DNA from: Burkholderiaceae bacterium
GTDB taxonomy: Bacteria > Pseudomonadota > Gammaproteobacteria > Burkholderiales > Burkholderiaceae_D
Direction: 5' to 3'
Assembly (NCBI GenBank): GCA_030158675.1
Contig: JAOASL010000026.1
Location: forward strand, 1-44,991
DNA: 44,991 nt
The notes below the pieces were generated by a model that made no database searches, had not been told where the DNA came from, and was given only the letters and a program-made list of their open reading frames with translations. Made by a program: the position numbers and the translations under genes. Within the stretch, counting starts at the first letter, position 1. The number at the start of each line of letters is the position of its first letter. Positions 7,395 through 44,991 of the stretch are shown here, one piece after another.

Positions 7395-8645
7395 TTAAAC
7401 ATCGCGTAGCGGTGCCTTCCAAAGCAGCAGTGCGGCGCCGGCCTTCAGCACGCAGGGCAGCAGTGCATAGGCCACTGTGAGTGCCACCAGCCCGGCAGGT
7501 TCGGCAGCGCCCGGTACATAGTCCAGCCATTCCAGCAACGGCAGTGCAATGCCGGCCGCCAGCGCCAGGTTCATCTTCGTCATCCAGCTCCACAGTCCGA
7601 AGTAACTGCCCTCGCGGCCGCCGGCGTGGCCGGCATCGCCGATGACGCCGGCCAGCAGTGCCGGCGGCAGCGCGAGGTCGGCGCCGAGGGTGGCGCCGGT
7701 TGCCACGCAGACCAGCGCGAATGGCAGCATGTCGCCCGCGCCGAGCGCAGCCGTCCATGCGAAGGCGACCACCCCCAGCAGCATGGCGCCCAGCCAGGCG
7801 CGGGCTTCGCCGATGCGGGCCGCTATCCGCGACCACAGCGGCAGCGTCAGTGCTGCCGCACCGAAGTACAGCAGCAGGAACGTGCTGGCGTGCTGCGGCA
7901 GTTGCAATCGATCCGACGCGAAAAACAGAAACAGTGTCGCCGGTATGGCGGCAGCGATGCCGTTCATGGCAAACACAGCGAACAGCCAGCGGAAACGGCG
8001 ACCCGCCAGAGGCGCCAGCCAGTGCGTATCGGCGTCGGCCAATGCCGCAGTCTGCTCAACCGCAAGTACGGCACGCGGTGCGCGTTGCCACAGCAGTCCG
8101 GCCGTCGCCAGCAGCAATACCGCAAATGCCACCGACAACGCGGTCAGGCCGCCGAGCGTCGGCAGGATCGCCGCCAGCACCACGCCGGCCAGCGCGCAGC
8201 CCTCGCGCACCGCAGTCAGGCGTGCGCGTTCGCCGCGTCGTTGCGTGAGGCTCGCGCCCCAGCTGTTGTGCGCGATCGTGGCAATCGAATAGCCGAGATA
8301 GACCATCACCAGACTCGCGCCGAACCAGCCGATCAATGCATTCCCGCTCAGGCCGGGCGGATGAAACAGTGCGACAAAGCCGGCCAGCAGCGGCGGCAGC
8401 GCCAGCAGCACGAAGCCCGCATGGCCGCGTCCATGCGGTGCGCGATCGATCCAGCGTCCGAGCAACGGATCGATGAACGCATCCAGCACCCGCGCTGCCA
8501 GCAGCACCGCGCCGACCGTCGCCAGCGGCATGCCGAGATTGATGGCGTACAGCTGCGGCACCATCACATAGACCGGCAGCGCCACCAGCGCCAGCGGCAG
8601 GCCGAACAGGCCGTAAGCGAGCAACTGTCTGGCCGTGTACGTCAT
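7395..8645 (-). CDS. MFS transporter of the GPH (melibiose-carrier-like) type
   Basis: The protein has 416 residues with about 12 predicted membrane segments. The N-terminal half has the signature DAFIDPLLGRWIDRA and a conserved-looking HNSWGASLTQRRGERARLTA loop, typical of glycoside-pentoside-hexuronide (GPH) family carriers, which are cation symporters. Its place inside a fatty-acid/lipid operon makes a sugar substrate doubtful; a lipid or lipid-precursor role is inference. The ATG at 8645 overlaps the stop of the chalcone-isomerase-like gene (ATGA). The gap to the following lipoprotein gene is 14 bp. Confidence 0.88.
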   Translation of the reverse strand: MTYTARQLLAYGLFGLPLALVALPVYVMVPQLYAINLGMPLATVGAVLLAARVLDAFIDPLLGRWIDRAPHGRGHAGFVLLALPPLLAGFVALFHPPGLSGNALIGWFGASLVMVYLGYSIATIAHNSWGASLTQRRGERARLTAVREGCALAGVVLAAILPTLGGLTALSVAFAVLLLATAGLLWQRAPRAVLAVEQTAALADADTHWLAPLAGRRFRWLFAVFAMNGIAAAIPATLFLFFASDRLQLPQHASTFLLLYFGAAALTLPLWSRIAARIGEARAWLGAMLLGVVAFAWTAALGAGDMLPFALVCVATGATLGADLALPPALLAGVIGDAGHAGGREGSYFGLWSWMTKMNLALAAGIALPLLEWLDYVPGAAEPAGLVALTVAYALLPCVLKAGAALLLWKAPLRDV

Positions 8646-9181
8646 GGCTTGCCCAGCAAGGCCGCGCGCAGCTTCGGTGCGCTGGTGTGCGGATGCAGCC
8701 AGATGCCGAAGAACGCCGGACCAAACTCGGGATCGGCGATCTCACCGATTGCAACGCCGTCTCGGAAAAAGCGCGTCGGCTGGCCCGGCTGATACAGACC
8801 CACCAGCTGCGTGCCTTCTTCCACATTCGGGAACATTTGTTTCATCGCATCCAGCCAGGCGCGCTGCTGGGCGGCCGTGCCGATGCCGAGTTTTTTCATC
8901 TCATCGCTACTGGCCTCCGCAATGCGGGTGCCATACAGGTTGCGGGAATAGGTCAGCTCGAGGGCGAGCGGCGTGCGCATCCAGTCCTCCGTACTCACGC
9001 TGCGTTTCCTGGACCACAGCCGCGCGTCGTACAGCTTTAAACCGAACCAGCGAAAGGAGCCGCTGCCAAGTGGCACGGCATCCGGCAGCAGCTCACGCAC
9101 CGGGGACGCCTGCGCTGATGCCGCAAGCAGAACGAACAGGCAGGTGATGGAAAACAGCCAGCGGCAGAGTGCGTGCTTCAT
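8642..9181 (-). CDS. Chalcone-isomerase-like exported protein
   Basis: The protein has 179 residues. The ATG at 9181 (MKHALCRWLFSITCLFVLLA) gives a clear signal peptide cleaved near AQASP. The mature part contains GSGSFRWFGLKLYDARLW, LELTYSRNLYGTRIAEAS and FFGIWLHPHTSAPKLRAALL, the pattern of the chalcone-isomerase-like family in bacteria. Related folds bind fatty acids, which fits the neighbouring cyclopropane-fatty-acid synthase; ligand binding rather than catalysis is plausible but not shown. It overlaps the MFS gene by four bases and follows cfa after 10 bp. Confidence 0.88.
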   Translation of the reverse strand: MKHALCRWLFSITCLFVLLAASAQASPVRELLPDAVPLGSGSFRWFGLKLYDARLWSRKRSVSTEDWMRTPLALELTYSRNLYGTRIAEASSDEMKKLGIGTAAQQRAWLDAMKQMFPNVEEGTQLVGLYQPGQPTRFFRDGVAIGEIADPEFGPAFFGIWLHPHTSAPKLRAALLGKP

Positions 9182-9191
9182 GGTGTCTGGT

Positions 9192-10436
9192 TCAGTCTTT
9201 TTGCAGCGTGAACTGGTACAAGTCGATGCTGCCGGCACGGAAGCCCGCCTCGCAGTACGCGAGATAGAACGACCAGGTCCGGATGAATCGATCGTCAAAC
9301 CCCTGTGCCCGTACCGCGGGCAGTTGCCGGTTGAATGACTGGTGCCAATCGGCCAGCGTGCGCGCGTAATCGGTGCCGAACGCCAGTTCGTCCACTACCG
9401 CCAGGCCATGCCGCTGCGCATGCGCACAGAACGCGGCCGGCGACGGCAGCATGCCGCCGGGAAAAATGTACTGCTGGATGAAATCGCTGCCCTTGCGGTA
9501 GCGGTCGAACAGTTCGTCAGCGATGGTGATGGTCTGGATGCATGCACGACCGCCGGACTTCAGCCGGCGCGCCACGCACGCGAAATAGTCGTCCCAGTAG
9601 GCCTCGCCGACGGCTTCGAACATTTCGATCGATGCGATCGCGTCAAACTCGCCGACGACATCGCGGTAATCCTGCAGCCGCAGGTCGGCTTGCGCGGCAA
9701 GACCGGCCTGCTGCAGCCGCTGCTGCGCGAAATCCAGCTGCTCGGTCGACAGTGTCAGTCCTGTCACCTGCGCGCCGTTTTGCGCCGCCAGCTCGGCGAA
9801 ACCGCCCCAGCCACAGCCGATCTCAAGGACGCGGCCGCCGCGCGCAAGACGCAACTGCTCGAGCAGGCGCGTGTACTTCGCCTGCTGCGCCTGTTCGAGC
9901 GTCAGCTCGGGCGAGGTGAACAGCGCGCTCGAGTAGGTCATCGACGGATCCAGCCACAGCCGGTAAAAGCGGTTGCCGATATCGTAGTGCGCATGAATGT
10001 TGCGGCGGCTGCCGGCCTTCGAGTTGCGATTGAAGACATGCCGCAGCCGGTACAGCAGACCACCCCACCAGCTGCCGTAAATCGCCGACTCCAGCCGGTC
10101 GCGGTTATGGATAAACAGTCGCAGCAATTCCGCCAGATCGTCGGTCTGCCAGTCACCATCAATGAAGCTTTCGGCGAAGCCGATGTCGCCTGAACGCATG
10201 GCGGCGATGCACGGCTTCCAGTTCTTCAGGCGGATCATCGCCGTTGCCGTGCCGCTGCCAAATGACAGCACACTGCCGTCAGGACAGGTAACACGCAGCG
10301 TGCCGTGTTCAAGACGGCGCAGCATCTGCAGCATGACGCGCGCCTGCGCGGGCATGGTCGCGGGAAATCGGTTCGTCGCGTGGTCGGTACTGGCCGCGCG
10401 GTCGAGGTCGAGGCCGGCGGAGGCGGTTTTGTTCAT
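9192..10436 (-). CDS. cfa: Cyclopropane-fatty-acyl-phospholipid synthase family methyltransferase
   Basis: This is an SAM-dependent enzyme that modifies double bonds of membrane phospholipid acyl chains. At 414 residues it has the full length of the family. Visible features are an N-terminal acyl-lipid domain (FAESFIDGDW), HYDIGNRFYRLWLDPSMTYS and the SAM site VLEIGCGWGGFAE. These are followed by SIEMFEAVGEAYW, FIQQYIFPGGMLPS and a late W..SFYLAYCEAGF. The gene overlaps DUF1365 by four bases and lies in the conserved order amine oxidase-DUF1365-cfa. In Rhodobacter sphaeroides a comparable set belongs to the RpoE/ChrR singlet-oxygen response. Whether the product is a cyclopropane or another methylated acyl chain cannot be told from sequence. 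Confidence 0.93.
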   Translation of the reverse strand: MNKTASAGLDLDRAASTDHATNRFPATMPAQARVMLQMLRRLEHGTLRVTCPDGSVLSFGSGTATAMIRLKNWKPCIAAMRSGDIGFAESFIDGDWQTDDLAELLRLFIHNRDRLESAIYGSWWGGLLYRLRHVFNRNSKAGSRRNIHAHYDIGNRFYRLWLDPSMTYSSALFTSPELTLEQAQQAKYTRLLEQLRLARGGRVLEIGCGWGGFAELAAQNGAQVTGLTLSTEQLDFAQQRLQQAGLAAQADLRLQDYRDVVGEFDAIASIEMFEAVGEAYWDDYFACVARRLKSGGRACIQTITIADELFDRYRKGSDFIQQYIFPGGMLPSPAAFCAHAQRHGLAVVDELAFGTDYARTLADWHQSFNRQLPAVRAQGFDDRFIRTWSFYLAYCEAGFRAGSIDLYQFTLQKD

Positions 10437-38988: not shown

Positions 38989-39341
38989 CGGGGCAATTTC
39001 TGCATCCTTGAGATGCCGCGCATGATGCCATGGCTTGTCTGCAGACGGTTGTTGGTTTCTATGGCGTTCTCATTTTTGCAATTTGCGGGCCGCCTGTTCG
39101 GGGTGAACTGTGCAAGCCGGTGCATGTGAAGAGCGCAATTTTCAGAAAAATACCCTTCTTCTATGTATAGCGATATAGGCGGAAGTGACATAATTGCACG
39201 GTAGGTTCCGAGGAGCCCGCCCGTCCCTGCACGGCATTGATGGGGCTGGCTTCTGTCGGCAGTGGCCGGTCGGCCATGTCTCGCTGTCGCACTTTGGCGA
39301 GTTTGCCGGTACTACTGCTGCACCTATTTTTATCGGCAGGC
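38989..39341. other. Intergenic region before the repeat metalloprotease gene
   Basis: These 353 bp lie between two divergent genes. The central part (39090-39195) is AT-rich, with TATAG/CATAAT-like boxes (39189-39194 on plus) but no convincing -35. The 3' third is open in the frame of the downstream gene and could encode an N-terminal extension with a hydrophobic run (LASLPVLLLHLFLSAG), so the true start may lie here. No RNA gene is seen. Confidence 0.45.
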
Positions 39342-42300
39342 ATGCATCCAATGAAGCGAAGAAGCAGTTTTTCCACCCTCGATTCCCTGGCATTCGAGAG
39401 CCTCTCGGCAAACCTGGTGCTCAATGACAGCCTCGACCTGACGGCACCGACCGTCACGCAGTTCAGTCCGGCCGACGGCGCGTCGGCGGTGCCGACTTAC
39501 GCGAACATTGCGCTGACCTTCAGCGAGGCGATTGAGCGCGGTACAGGAACGATCCGTATCGTCGCCAGTTCGCCCACGGGCAGCGTGCGCGAATCATTCG
39601 ACGTGGCCACGAGCAGCCGGCTGACATTGAGCGGCGACACGCTGTTGATCGACCCGACGCTCAACCTGGCTGGCAACACGCGCTACTACGTGACGTTCAG
39701 CCCGGATTCGGTCAAAGACCCGTCGGGCAACGGCTACGCGGGCACGACGAGCTACGACTTCCTGACGGCGGCATCCGACACCTCGGCACCGAAGGTGCTG
39801 TCGTATTCGCCGGCGGATGGATCAACCGGCGTGGACACCGCCGCGAACATTGCACTGACCTTCAACGAGCTGATCCAGCGGGGTGCCGGCACGATCTACC
39901 TGCGATCGGGGTCGTCGAGCGGAACGATAGTGGAGAGCTTCAATGCGGCCAGCAGCGACCGGCTGTCGATCGCGGGCACGACGCTGACAGTCGATCCAAC
40001 CGCTAACCTGTCGGGGAGCACCCGGTATTACCTGACCTTCGGCTCGGGGACGGTGAAGGACCTCGCAGGCAACAATTACAGTGGCACGACCGGCTACGAT
40101 TTTCAGACCGGCGTGGCTGACCTGACGGCACCCACCATCACGCAGTTCAGTCCGGCCGACGGCACGACCGGCGTGGCGACGTACGCGAACATTGCGCTCA
40201 CCTTCAGCGAAGCGATTCGCAAGGGTACCGGGACGATCGAGCTGCGTACGGCATTGAACGAGCTGCTTGAAAGCTTCGACGTGGTCGCCAGCGATCGGGT
40301 GAGCTTGTCGGGGAACGTGCTGAAGATCGATCCGACGACCTACCTGTCTGGCGAGACCGCCTATGTGCTGACCCTGGCTGCCGGTGTGGTCGAGGATCTG
40401 TCCGGTAACGCCTCTGCGGGCAGCAGCAGTTATGGTTTTACGACCGGTGTGGCCGACACGAATGCGCCGGCGGTGGCCAGTTTTGCACCGGCCGATGGCG
40501 CGAGCGAGGTGCTGCCGGCGGCCAGCATCAAGGTGGTGTTCGACGAGGCGATCCAGCGTGGCACAGGGACGATCGCCATCCGTGCAGGCGCGGACGACGG
40601 TACGCTGCTGGAGAGCTTCAATGCCGCCAGCAGCGATCGCCTGTCGATCGCGGGAGCGACGCTGACAATCGATCCGACGGCGATGCTGGCCGGGCAGACG
40701 CAGTATTTCGTGAGCTTCGCGGCAGGCAGCATCGAGGATCTGTCGGGCAACGACTATGCGGGCAGCACGGCCTATGATTTCACGACCGGCATACCCGACC
40801 TGACGGCACCGACCGTCACGCAGTTCAGTCCGGCCGACGGCGCGTCGGCGGTGCCGACTTACGCGAACATTGCGCTGACCTTCAGCGAGGCGATTGAGCG
40901 CGGTACAGGAACGATCCGTATCGTCGCCAGTTCGCCCACGGGCAGCGTGCGCGAATCATTCGACGTGGCCACGAGCAGCCGGCTGACATTGAGCGGCGAC
41001 ACGCTGTTGATCGACCCGACGCTCAACCTGGCTGGCAACACGCGCTACTACGTGACGTTCAGCCCGGATTCGGTCAAAGACCCGTCGGGCAACGGCTACG
41101 CGGGCACGACGAGCTACGACTTCCTGACGGCGGCATCCGACACCTCGGCACCGAAGGTGCTGTCGTATTCGCCGGCGGATGGATCAACCGGCGTGGACAC
41201 CGCCGCGAACATTGCACTGACCTTCAACGAGCTGATCCAGCGGGGTGCCGGCACGATCTACCTGCGATCGGGGTCGTCGAGCGGAACGATAGTGGAGAGC
41301 TTCAATGCGGCCAGCAGCGACCGGCTGTCGATCGCGGGCACGACGCTGACAGTCGATCCAACCGCTAACCTGTCGGGGAGCACCCGGTATTACCTGACCT
41401 TCGGCTCGGGGACGGTGAAGGACCTCGCAGGCAACAATTACAGTGGCACGACCGGCTACGATTTTCAGACCGGCGTGGCTGACCTGACGGCACCCACCAT
41501 CACGCAGTTCAGTCCGGCCGACGGCACGACCGGCGTGGCAACGAATGCGAACGTGACGCTGACCTTCAGCGAGGCGATCCAGCGGGGCGCCGGCACGATT
41601 TACCTGCGCTCGGGTTCAGCGACCGGGGCGGTGGTGGAGAGCTTCGATGCGGCCGGCAGTGAGCGGCTGTCGGTTTCGGGGTCGACGCTGACGATCGATC
41701 CGACCGTCAACCTGTCGCACAGTACTCAGTATTTCGTGACCTTCGGTTCGGGGACGGTGAAGGATCTGGCGGGCAATAGTTATGCGGGCACGAGCAGCTA
41801 TGATTTTCAGACCGCGACAGACCCTTCTTCTTTTAATATCTATATCAATTTTTCGGGTGATTCCCAATACCGGTCTTATTTTGATCAGGCCGCTGCGCTG
41901 TTTGAAACGATGCTGACCCAGGATCTGCCCGACATCTATCTGAACGGGGAATGGATCGATGACCTGAAGATCGACGCCAGCACGCCTTACATCGATGGTG
42001 TCGATGGCATTCTCGGTCAGGCCGGATTCACCTATTACCGTACGAGTTCCCTGCTGCCGGTTGCCGGCATCATGAAATTCGATTCGGCGGATGTGGCGTC
42101 CATGGTCGCCGACGGCATTTTTGCGGATGTGGTCGCGCACGAAATGGCGCATGTGCTGGGATTTGGCACCCTCTGGGATGACATCGGCCTGAATTCGACG
42201 TTTGGCCGATATTCAGGAGCCCAGGCCCTGAATGAATACCGACTGCTTTCCGGCCAGCCCTCCGCCAGCTATGTGCCGCTGGAGACGGGCGGTGGATCGG

Positions 42301-42980
42301 GTACCGCCAATTCCCATTGGTCGGAGACAGTCTTTGGCAGAGAGCTGATGACGGGATATGCATCCGCGTCCGGAAATATGCCGCTCAGCCGCATGACAGT
42401 CGCCGCGTTTTCCGATCTTGGCTATCAGGTCAATTATGGTGTTGCCGAGACATACAGCCTGCCGGCGCAACTCGTATCGCTGAGCACAACGCCAAGCAAT
42501 ACGTCGCCTGAAAGCGGCATTGCATCAATCTCGGCCAATGAGCGCTACATGGTTGTCGGTGGCACCGCCAAAGATGATCAGCTGTCCGGCAGCGAGCGCA
42601 ACGATTATATGGTCGGCTTGAGCGGTCGCGATGTCATTACGACCGGCGGTGGCAACGACCGAATTCTGCTGTCGCAGATGTCATTGTCCGGCGGCGTTGA
42701 TGTCATTACAGATTTCGCACCGGGTGCCGACCAGCTGGTGCTCGATGCCGCCGTGTTTGGCGCACTAGCAGATTTTGCCGGTGCATCCAGCATCGGCAGC
42801 GGGAATTTCACGCTGGATGGCCTGGCGCACGACGCCAATGATTTCCTGCTCTATGACCAGGCAATCCACACCCTGTATTACGATGCGGATGGCATGGGTA
42901 TGGTGGTGGCCAGGCCGATCGCCGTACTCAGTCTCGAGGGCTCGCAGGTACTCTCTTATCTGGATTTTTTCGTTGCCTGA
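39342..42980 (+). CDS. Giant Ig-like repeat metalloprotease with RTX-like C-terminus
   Basis: The protein has about 1212 residues from ATG 39342; 39351 is equally possible, and in-frame starts back to 39237 exist. From about residue 32 there are seven tandem Big_5 (SbsA Ig-like) domains of about 113 residues, each opening AP.(V/I)..(F/Y)SPADG. From about residue 826 comes a metalloprotease domain of leishmanolysin-like (M8) type with HEMAHVLGFG, a third His in NSHWSETVFG, and GRELMTGY as the Met-turn. From about 1070 GGTAKDDQLSGSERNDYMVG and GGGNDRILLS resemble RTX nonapeptide repeats, followed by DVITDFAPGADQLVLD as in M10/RTX C-termini. Type I secretion is therefore likely, but no transporter genes are present here. 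The first and fifth domains (and neighbours) are identical at DNA level. Confidence 0.88.
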   Translation: MHPMKRRSSFSTLDSLAFESLSANLVLNDSLDLTAPTVTQFSPADGASAVPTYANIALTFSEAIERGTGTIRIVASSPTGSVRESFDVATSSRLTLSGDTLLIDPTLNLAGNTRYYVTFSPDSVKDPSGNGYAGTTSYDFLTAASDTSAPKVLSYSPADGSTGVDTAANIALTFNELIQRGAGTIYLRSGSSSGTIVESFNAASSDRLSIAGTTLTVDPTANLSGSTRYYLTFGSGTVKDLAGNNYSGTTGYDFQTGVADLTAPTITQFSPADGTTGVATYANIALTFSEAIRKGTGTIELRTALNELLESFDVVASDRVSLSGNVLKIDPTTYLSGETAYVLTLAAGVVEDLSGNASAGSSSYGFTTGVADTNAPAVASFAPADGASEVLPAASIKVVFDEAIQRGTGTIAIRAGADDGTLLESFNAASSDRLSIAGATLTIDPTAMLAGQTQYFVSFAAGSIEDLSGNDYAGSTAYDFTTGIPDLTAPTVTQFSPADGASAVPTYANIALTFSEAIERGTGTIRIVASSPTGSVRESFDVATSSRLTLSGDTLLIDPTLNLAGNTRYYVTFSPDSVKDPSGNGYAGTTSYDFLTAASDTSAPKVLSYSPADGSTGVDTAANIALTFNELIQRGAGTIYLRSGSSSGTIVESFNAASSDRLSIAGTTLTVDPTANLSGSTRYYLTFGSGTVKDLAGNNYSGTTGYDFQTGVADLTAPTITQFSPADGTTGVATNANVTLTFSEAIQRGAGTIYLRSGSATGAVVESFDAAGSERLSVSGSTLTIDPTVNLSHSTQYFVTFGSGTVKDLAGNSYAGTSSYDFQTATDPSSFNIYINFSGDSQYRSYFDQAAALFETMLTQDLPDIYLNGEWIDDLKIDASTPYIDGVDGILGQAGFTYYRTSSLLPVAGIMKFDSADVASMVADGIFADVVAHEMAHVLGFGTLWDDIGLNSTFGRYSGAQALNEYRLLSGQPSASYVPLETGGGSGTANSHWSETVFGRELMTGYASASGNMPLSRMTVAAFSDLGYQVNYGVAETYSLPAQLVSLSTTPSNTSPESGIASISANERYMVVGGTAKDDQLSGSERNDYMVGLSGRDVITTGGGNDRILLSQMSLSGGVDVITDFAPGADQLVLDAAVFGALADFAGASSIGSGNFTLDGLAHDANDFLLYDQAIHTLYYDADGMGMVVARPIAVLSLEGSQVLSYLDFFVA
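39434..40177 (+). repeat. 744-bp perfect direct repeat, copy 1
   Basis: This block covers Ig-like domains 1 and 2 and the start of domain 3. It is identical base for base to copy 2 (40796-41539), 1362 bp downstream. The offset is a multiple of three, so unequal crossing-over would delete or add exactly four domains in frame. Confidence 0.97.
40796..41539 (+). repeat. 744-bp perfect direct repeat, copy 2
   Basis: This is the second copy of the block at 39434-40177 and covers domains 5, 6 and the start of 7. The flanks diverge at once (C versus T before, A versus G after), and domains 3/4 and 7 differ clearly. Recent duplication or gene conversion is indicated. Confidence 0.97.
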
Positions 42981-43288
42981 TCTTGCCGCAATATTTGAAA
43001 AAAGAGAAAACCGAAAAGGTTTCGGGCTTTTGTGTACAGTCACGTGAACACTTTTCGAAGGTCTTGGTCTTGGTTTTGAGCGCCGGAATTCATAAGATCA
43101 GACGTTGAACTGAAAATTCAGTACATTCCCATCCTTCGCGTGCCTCTGGCCTGATTCCTTCGGGTGCGCTAGCTTGTGCACTTACGTACTCGTAAAAGAA
43201 ATTGCATGCCTTGCAGAGATTTTGCGAATCTATCGGGCATTTATCCATTGCGCAAAGCCAACCGCAGACGAGCATTCGCAACAAAAAA
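42981..43288. other. AT-rich intergenic region, no gene seen
   Basis: These 308 bp separate the metalloprotease gene from the CphA-like gene. Besides the weak terminator at 43011-43031, there is a small inverted repeat ACTGAA-AA-TTCAGT (43109-43122). Short reading frames here on either strand have no start context or recognisable product. Confidence 0.5.
43011..43031 (+). terminator. Weak intrinsic terminator after the metalloprotease gene
   Basis: The stem CCGAAA/TTTCGG (43011-43016 with 43020-43025) has a 3-nt loop and is followed by GCTTTT. It starts 30 bp after the stop codon. The stem is short, so confidence is limited. Confidence 0.4.
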
Positions 43289-44991
43289 ATGAACGACAAA
43301 TTTTCAACTCTGACTTTAATCAACGATCCCGAGTTTTATCCCGGGTACATGTTTGGATTCGATCAGCCATGCATCGTTTTTAAATTAAAGTTCAATGTCG
43401 CCATTGAACAGTTCTGGTTGGATTGTCGCGAAAATATCATCCAAGTTGATCAGGCGGTTCGCTCGCTCATTCGTCCGTCACAGCACACATCCTCCTATGG
43501 CAGCGAGGAAAAGCGTATTGATTACCTTGCATTCTGGATTCGCTCTTTAATTGAGCACTATGGCTATCCTATTTTTAATGAACCAAAAATTAGGCCGATT
43601 AAAATTGCGAATCAAATAATCTGGGCGATGATCTTTCCTTGCCTGGATCGCACGCCAATGCTTGCAGCCTTCCAGATCGGACTGAAAGCAATGTTGCTGG
43701 CGCATGGAATAAATAAATTGCCAGATTCGGCAAAAGCCGAACTTGCCGATTTGATGAAGGCAAAAGATTCCGAACTCAGGAGCTATGCGCTGACAGGCTT
43801 CAACATGCTGCATTTTTTGAGCGAGGCAAATAATCTCGGCATCCCATGGTTCCGATATTCATCAGATATTTTTCAATTGGGCTACGGTGCGAATTCGAGG
43901 CTTCTTCGCAGTTCGATTACGGACCGCACCTCCAATATTTCGGTGGGAATTGCAAGAGATAAACAGAAGACCAATAATCTTTTGCGTGCCGCAGGCTTAC
44001 CAGTTCCGGCCCAGGCAGTGGTTGCCTCTGCCGAGAGGGCGGTTCAGGTCGGGCGCACCATTGGCTATCCTGTGGTTGTGAAACCCGCAGACCTTGATGG
44101 CGGGGTTGGGGTTGGCGCCTTGTTGCAGGATGATGAGTCTGTCCGTGCTGCTTTCAGCCATGCCTCTGGCTTTTCCAAACACATCGTCATCGAAAAATAC
44201 ATCGAGGGTAATGACTACAGGATTCTGGTTGTCAATGACCAAGTACTCGGAGTGCTCGAGCGCGCTCATGGCGGCGTAACTGGTGACGGCAAACAATCTG
44301 TGCGGAATTTGATTGATATACAAAATCAAGAGCGAGCCAACGCGAAAGACGATCGTCGCTTTCTTCATCCGATCAAGCCTGACCATGAAGCGGAGCGAAT
44401 GCTATTGCACGCCGGATTTGCCTGGGACGATGTGCCGCCCAAAGGAAAATTTGTGCGCCTGCGTGCGGCTGCGAATGTAGCCAGTGGTGGTATTCCGACT
44501 GAAATTTTAGTGACAGAAATGCATACAGATAATTTGATGCTTGCACGAAGAGTGGCGAGGACATTGAGATTGGATGTGGCTGGGATCGATCTCTTGATGG
44601 TGGACATTCGAAAGTCATGGCTGGAATGCGGAGCCGGCATTTGCGAGGTCAATGCGCAGCCACAGATGTTTACCACGCTCCATGCCCCGATGCTACGCGC
44701 ACTCTTGCCCGACAGGTCGGGGCGCATTCCAATTGTCGTGGTTTTGACGGCCGCAGTCGATTGCGAGTTCAGTGAAAGTTTGTATCGCGGTGTGCTCAGC
44801 CTTTATCCGAATGCCGGATGGGTATCAAACAAGATGGTCAAGCTCGCGGGGCGACAAGCTGCTGCTGCAGGAGCGTCGCTATTCGATTCATCGCGTTCCT
44901 TGTTGCTCGATACTGCACTCGAGGCGCTAGTGATTTCTGTATCTGATGGCGATATCCTCTCATCCGGCTGGCCAATTGATCGCTGTGATGC
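43289..44991 (+). CDS. Cyanophycin-synthetase-like ATP-grasp protein, degenerate Mur-ligase part (3' end outside window)
   Basis: An open frame of 567 codons runs from ATG 43289 to the window end. Residues 1-210 form an N-terminal domain that I do not recognise confidently. Residues about 213-470 match the ATP-grasp domain of cyanophycin synthetase: ISVGIARDKQKTNNLLRAAG, GYPVVVKPADLDGGVGVG, IVIEKYIEGNDYRILVVNDQ, FVRLRAAANVASGGIPTEI, RLDVAGIDLLMVD and CEVNAQPQ with the Glu/Asn metal ligands. After residue 477, GRIPIVVV aligns with the start of the CphA Mur-ligase domain, but TAAVDCEF replaces the GTNGKT P-loop. DTALEALVISVSDGDILSSG then aligns with its ETARGGILREG region. It may ligate amino acids or dipeptides with only one active site, like CphA2-type enzymes (inference). 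The gene is more AT-rich than its neighbours. Confidence 0.82.
   Translation, partial: MNDKFSTLTLINDPEFYPGYMFGFDQPCIVFKLKFNVAIEQFWLDCRENIIQVDQAVRSLIRPSQHTSSYGSEEKRIDYLAFWIRSLIEHYGYPIFNEPKIRPIKIANQIIWAMIFPCLDRTPMLAAFQIGLKAMLLAHGINKLPDSAKAELADLMKAKDSELRSYALTGFNMLHFLSEANNLGIPWFRYSSDIFQLGYGANSRLLRSSITDRTSNISVGIARDKQKTNNLLRAAGLPVPAQAVVASAERAVQVGRTIGYPVVVKPADLDGGVGVGALLQDDESVRAAFSHASGFSKHIVIEKYIEGNDYRILVVNDQVLGVLERAHGGVTGDGKQSVRNLIDIQNQERANAKDDRRFLHPIKPDHEAERMLLHAGFAWDDVPPKGKFVRLRAAANVASGGIPTEILVTEMHTDNLMLARRVARTLRLDVAGIDLLMVDIRKSWLECGAGICEVNAQPQMFTTLHAPMLRALLPDRSGRIPIVVVLTAAVDCEFSESLYRGVLSLYPNAGWVSNKMVKLAGRQAAAAGASLFDSSRSLLLDTALEALVISVSDGDILSSGWPIDRCD

Follow-up and report, generated by a model that had tools for sequence, protein, structure and literature searches.

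The stretch of DNA analyzed here (the window), 44991 bases long, comprises an entire contig, and the gene of interest lies at its very end. Its product, designated P0001, and the features considered in and around the gene are as follows.

42981-43288, no strand: intergenic gap 5' of the P0001 gene; a low-GC stretch starts around here in the GC profile.
43289-44989, + strand: short CphA-like ligase gene, an open frame with 567 codons seen and the 3' end cut by the contig end at 44991.
43289-43948, + strand: divergent CphA N-like domain, residues 1-220, without HxxEH (alignment of family profile A2 to CphA1 chains).
43952-44683, + strand: ATP-grasp domain, residues 222-465 (Pfam RimK, 57 bits, and a residue map to TeCphA1).
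44720-44989, + strand: half Mur-like domain, residues 478-567, without an ATP site (tail alignment with CphA1).
44744-44767, + strand: place of the missing P-loop, with LTAAVDCE instead of TGTNGKTT (alignment with Clostridium CphA).

The upstream neighbor (39237-42980) has seven Big_5 repeats, a leishmanolysin-like M8 peptidase region and an RTX repeat. A small-ORF scan, judged by eye, recognized no precursor-like ORF in the gap between the two genes.

The order of N-domain, ATP-grasp and Mur-like domain that an earlier note had read as that of CphA is the order found, with the boundaries listed above. Pfam matches P0001 with ATP-grasp families only, from residue 222 on, while the alignments of family profile A2 to the CphA1 chains 7lgm and 7lgn begin at positions 4 and 7. 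In NCBIfam the two best matches are both cyanophycin synthetase models, PRK14016 (302 bits, cut-off 877) and TIGR02068 (273.9 bits, cut-off 850). Both scores are well under the cut-off; P0001 is itself truncated, and two complete fusion relatives, at 229 and 211 bits, are also under that of PRK14016. The third-best match is TIGR03103, N-acetylglutaminylglutamine (NAGGN) synthetase or Ngg, with 148 bits (cut-off 569). Against the PDB, P0001 alone matches CphA1 best, with 206 bits to 7lgm over residues 170-566, compared with 144 bits for 7ta5 and 137 for 8fxh, chains of 629 and 642 residues that we take to be CphA2. A 16-row family profile gives 346 bits for CphA1 versus 274 for 7ta5 and 293 for 8fxh. 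A structure prediction from an alignment of five CphA relatives gave a poor model (mean pLDDT 47, pTM 0.36).

The Mur-like tail of the short forms corresponds to the first half of the Mur core. In P0001 the segment GRIPIVVV (residues 478-485) runs directly into the altered P-loop stretch, in agreement with the earlier claim that GTNGKT is absent after it, and the downstream landmarks are indeed recognizable: SDGDIL falls at the ARGGIL of CphA1 in the alignment, and the DRCD end at the stretch that follows it. The glycine-rich loop departs from the usual type as well, with DLDGGVGVG in place of the DGNQGKGV type. P0001 is truncated by the contig end: complete relatives from its clade (clade A, below) extend 46-83 residues beyond its cut point. 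The alignment closes at a column just past the contig end of P0001, and beyond that column the complete short forms continue for 0-111 residues (50-77 in four later members). A search of the same genome for another place for the last 200 bases of the contig gave a best E value of 0.043 and no extension. Any partner genes on that side thus lie outside the window, as had been noted earlier.

We inspected an alignment of 28 short forms and 11 CphA1 sequences, from which the G187 and G422 pairs and a split G462 gene were left out, at positions whose roles in TeCphA1 are given in the excerpt of PMC9427784. P0001 retains the ATP-grasp residues K225, K265, R311, R325, D434, E453 and N455, equivalent to TeCphA1 K220, K261, R309, R323, D431, E450 and N452. 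K220, K261, D431, E450 and N452 occur in every one of the 28 short forms, and R309 and R323 in 27. The Mur site presents the opposite picture: K499 is found in one of the 28, T500 and E558 in none, versus 11 of 11 for each in CphA1. With the Mur-site residues lost almost throughout, the P-loop is missing as a feature of the short form and not through a local lesion, and the pattern bears out the prediction of one dead and one probably live site.

Two further positions concern the substrate. R458, near the alpha-carboxylate of the incoming aspartate in TeCphA1, and N394, which contacts the aspartate beta-carboxylate (both from the excerpt of PMC9427784), behave differently: R458 is absent from all 28 short forms, and from Ngg, and present in all 11 CphA1, while N394 is kept in P0001, in all 11 clade A members and in three of the 17 other short forms. 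The S396 position is alanine in P0001.

Some candidate diagnostics were considered and dropped. A pattern search found the N-domain motif HxxEH in none of the 28 short forms, but it is missing from six CphA1 rows too, and from CphA2 according to the excerpt of PMC9262961. Position 267, a histidine in TeCphA1, is Q or K in 10 of the 11 CphA1, and a simple P-loop pattern was abandoned in favor of the residue alignment because it missed GSIGKT in a CphA1-like protein of G167. Nor do we take the loss of R458 as a sign of a non-amino-acid nucleophile, since R458 is absent from Ngg as well, and Ngg joins two amino acids.

The source genome (G000; 3.0 Mb in 49 contigs) carries an ordinary pair side by side on contig C40, CphA1 with GVNGKT and CphA1' with GSEGTT. 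The CphA1' protein (L046, 447-2855) also has glycine at R323, so that both of its sites look altered. Besides P0001 there are six further short forms, in open frames that span 589-641 codons; C1 has four of them, and C2 and C30 one each. PF18921 matched only the CphA pair in this genome and missed the short forms. The GC content of the P0001 gene is 0.497 versus 0.615 for the contig upstream, and its third-position GC is 0.52 versus 0.75-0.79 in three neighboring genes; in the other six copies the GC content lies between 0.425 and 0.608, and low GC is thus not common to all. In 20 further genomes sampled from the genus, no short form was found. A search with P0001 gave matches in 18 of these 20, the CphA-like ones lying in frames of 710-882 codons except for four of 365-624, of which three touch a contig start or end. 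The clade A profile, with three candidates scored per genome, found two congener proteins above threshold, both CphA (879 and 882 codons). The simple inference is that the short form in this genome was gained by transfer.

Beyond the genus, short forms were counted by profile score and frame length; the samples overlap and three candidates were scored per genome, thus the counts are lower bounds. At least six of 399 genomes in the order sample have a short form, the source genome included (G000, G301, G167, G058, G187 and G422), as do at least six of 369 besides it in the class sample (G443, G462, G589, G656, G673 and G773). The phylum sample of 398 added at least two (G903 and G1091), with G589 and G773 recurring, and the family sample of 338 at least two more (G1335 and G1341). 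The total is at least 16 distinct genomes, a sparse group that is probably horizontally distributed. When scoring was extended to all candidates, G000 had seven copies, G301 four and G167 three; G058, G187 and G422 had two each, and G589, G673, G773, G656, G443 and G462 one each. A second match in G589 (215 bits, profile positions 186-432 only) was too weak to be counted. Near the short CphA-like genes of G058 and G589 are homologous proteins (42-43% identity; L101, 12316-14307, and L118, 11534-13732), the G589 one carrying an autotransporter beta-domain.

Viral contigs scanned with patterns from P0001 yielded no relative. Among plasmid records, 129 match one clade B protein (clade B is defined below), none covering 80% of it; of the 30 matches listed, most carry an annotation of cyanophycin synthetase, Ngg or GshAB, and one is a relative fused to CapA. 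This last protein, from the Microvirga ossetica plasmid NZ_CP016620.1 (L161, 3638-6652; annotated as CapA family protein WP_099515947.1), is CphA-like, has no P-loop by eye, and is fused to a PGA_cap (CapA) domain.

The phylogeny proposed earlier was obtained as far as placement beside CphA1 goes: the IQ-TREE tree, rooted at the midpoint, holds 41 rows, with CphA1 among them and no CphA2. P0001 falls in clade A (11 rows, support 99/97), where its sister is G1341_C50 (100/98; 38% identity), while clade B has 15 rows (100/100); an earlier 37-row tree contained the same two clades. Two long-branched sequences, G000_C1_8507 and G1091_b, group with CphA1, and the short form may therefore comprise more than one lineage. 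A long CphA1-like protein of G167 (L099 on C3, 5268-8510), with a GSIGKT P-loop and proline at R458, is encoded beside short forms and branches below the ordinary CphA1 clade.

RiPP-like neighborhoods and fusions are found with clade B and not with the clade of P0001. At five clade B loci in five genomes (G000 C2, G167, G301 C5, G773 and G462), the ligase gene has beside it an aKG-HExxH peptide beta-hydroxylase gene (75-113 bits, cut-off 40) and a conserved precursor-like small ORF of a kind that was not recognized upstream of P0001. HExxH enzymes hydroxylate RiPP precursors according to the excerpt of PMC12636437. Three of the small ORFs (L096, L123 and L120) have a common start of the type MQTVKLDPSKLFGFKI, followed by GAKIG-like repeats in L096 and L123 and by PKLGIKL in L120. 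The other two (L035 and L099) have LAPYG(S/A)L and KVGGGKG in common and lie directly 5' of the hydroxylase gene, whose mechanical start overlaps the small ORF in L035. At the G462 locus (L123, 8591-10413) the coding sequence of the short CphA-like protein is divided between two frames, although neither the hydroxylase gene nor the precursor-like ORF is interrupted. Ligases are also fused behind an adenylation domain in three cases (G301 C3, G167 and G1091), and adenylation-type genes adjoin the ligases of G301 C7 and G301 C3 and lie about 3.4 kb from that of G000 C2.

In the order sample, 11 of 399 genomes have such genes, three of these among the six with a short form (hypergeometric 3e-4, with genomes that are not independent). 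In a search of 14 short-form genomes (G1335 and G1341 not included), five have HExxH genes, six in number, of which five are beside a ligase gene. As controls we considered eight HExxH loci from genomes of the order with no detected short form, leaving out the second HExxH gene of G182, and found no CphA relative within the 7-13 kb examined. Two of these eight (G262 and G131) have an ORF of the MQTVKLDPSKLFGFKI type, and six have neither kind of ORF by the patterns used; thus the ligase is not obligatory where the same kind of precursor ORF occurs. The G262 locus (L128, 7267-8303) has two neighboring precursor-like ORFs with GAKVG repeats next to the HExxH gene, with no CphA relative in the examined stretch.

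For clade A we read the flanks of ten members besides P0001 and recognized no RiPP-like ORF. G000 C1 and G301 C4 have in common the order reductase, ligase, phosphodiesterase, glycosyltransferase (55, 43-44, 52 and 58-59% identity), the reductase of G000 C1 being a DUF1932 protein. A P450 and a protein of about 150 residues are found beside the ligase in G656, G1335 and G1341_C57, the P450 being assigned by Pfam in G656 and G1335; the roughly 150-residue proteins have no Pfam or NCBIfam match. This conserved small protein is encoded between the ligase and P450 genes (L156, 8215-8667; L157, 11363-11815; L121, near 8570-9205). The G656 locus also has a TauD-type gene, a PaaK-like AMP ligase, a methyltransferase and a glycosyltransferase, as well as a second PaaK-like AMP ligase recognized by eye only. 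A methyltransferase-like gene adjoins the ligase in five of the ten (G443, G903, G1341_C50, G1341_C52 and G000_C1_19338, the last under the Pfam cut-offs). In G1341_C50, the sister of P0001, it starts 6 bases downstream of the ligase, and by analogy our guess is that a methyltransferase may follow P0001 past the contig end.

The retained ATP-grasp chemistry, the lost Mur site, the recurring cluster context and the adenylation fusions together speak for an amide ligase that works in a single step and was recruited from CphA. On the strength of these sequence comparisons, we think it fairly probable that P0001 belongs to a CphA-derived family of single-site amide ligases used in the assembly of peptides or specialized metabolites. 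The presence of relatives among peptide- and metabolite-making genes suggests that bacteria have reused the enzyme for joining other molecules, not for nitrogen storage. The ATP-grasp domain would phosphorylate a carboxylate, and attack by an amine would give the amide, with the N-domain and the half Mur domain retained as a scaffold. Short-form enzymes would then have their role inside biosynthetic clusters and none in nitrogen storage, clade B acting on ribosomal precursor peptides or with acyl or aminoacyl adenylation domains, and clade A, including P0001, acting together with the products of methyltransferase, P450, reductase, phosphodiesterase or glycosyltransferase genes. The earlier suggestion of a different amino-acid polymer or peptide thus stands in outline, from the gene context of relatives.

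We considered whether P0001 might instead be a CphA2-like polymerase, its single ATP-grasp site repolymerizing beta-Asp-Arg or another dipeptide, which the earlier note had offered as one outcome. P0001 is in the size class of the chains that we take to be CphA2, yet CphA1 is closer than these by score. N394 is present in P0001, which is in favor of this reading, while R458 is missing throughout the short forms, but it is missing from Ngg too, in a comparison that covered CphA1 and Ngg. CphA2 likewise has a single active site (excerpt of PMC10206079) and no N-domain motif (excerpt of PMC9262961), but both excerpts describe it as cyanobacterial. Moreover, the neighbors of the relatives are tailoring and peptide-modification genes, one genome holds seven divergent copies, and the source genome already has CphA1 and CphA1', so that dipeptide polymerization is not supported and we regard it as quite improbable. 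It is also unlikely, in our view, that P0001 resembles NAGGN synthetase in making one small dipeptide or acyl-amino-acid amide, an osmolyte or signal, and no tailored natural product. The TIGR03103 match, the absence of R458 in both and the few evident partners of G1341_C50 and G1341_C52 besides one methyltransferase are consistent with such a role, but no GNAT match was found in P0001 or among those neighbors scanned, and the P450, TauD and PaaK-like genes around the G656 relative argue against it.

Two further explanations were considered. That it is a non-catalytic subunit or regulator of a CphA1 enzyme might be supposed from the CphA1 and CphA1' of the same genome, and from the long CphA1-like gene with the GSIGKT P-loop that lies about 1 kb from a short form in G167. 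The strong conservation of the ATP-grasp catalytic residues, the distance of the cphA pair from the short genes in G000 and G301, and the congeners that have cphA genes and no short form make this very unlikely. A decaying or misassembled CphA fragment would fit a gene that abuts the contig end and has a lower GC content than its contig, but the open frame has 598 codons without stops, and the same architecture occurs inside large contigs of the same genome (C2 and C30) and in other genomes; we consider this explanation very improbable.

Returning to the amide ligase reading, a more specific and more speculative version, which we offer as possible but somewhat doubtful, is that a storage-polymer synthetase has been recast as carrier-free peptide or amide ligases. 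Clade B would work on HExxH-hydroxylated ribosomal precursors or, in the adenylation-domain/CphA fusions, as an NRPS-like two-domain line without carrier proteins, and clade A would lead to methylated or P450-oxidized small peptides. If true, this would add a new class of ligases to natural-product biosynthesis, and the amide ligase reading itself, if true, would represent a route from nitrogen storage to specialized metabolism. It would also make the short CphA without a P-loop a recognizable marker for gene clusters that may escape mining rules based on known ligases. Loci that combine one ligase and one HExxH enzyme with a small precursor ORF are compact enough to be tested directly by co-expression.

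Among the matches listed from titles and abstract starts in the open PMC subset, we found no description of CphA-like ligases in RiPP or other clusters, although an earlier mention is possible; the excerpt of PMC4431377 names cyanophycin only among known peptide-ligase products. Compared with Ngg, the short forms have a related ATP-grasp domain and the same absence of R458, but Ngg carries an acetyltransferase-like part, of which no family is among the Pfam matches of P0001, and the Mur-site columns are gaps in its alignment. Graspetide and PGM1-type RiPP ATP-grasp ligases also act beside precursor peptides. These are not known to be CphA-derived, and in the short-form loci it is HExxH hydroxylase genes that go with the ligase. 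CphA2 is the known one-site CphA precedent (excerpts of PMC10206079 and PMC9262961) and has a similar length of about 600-650 residues, whereas the short forms, apart from their lower scores against its presumed chains, occur outside the cyanobacteria and among biosynthetic genes. With CphA1 (PDB 7lgm, 7wac and 7lg5), the family profile aligns over the N-domain, the ATP-grasp domain and the first half of the Mur core, and the ATP-grasp catalytic residues are the same; the short forms differ in having no Mur ATP site, no second Mur half and no R458, and in being surrounded by genes unlike those of cyanophycin metabolism.
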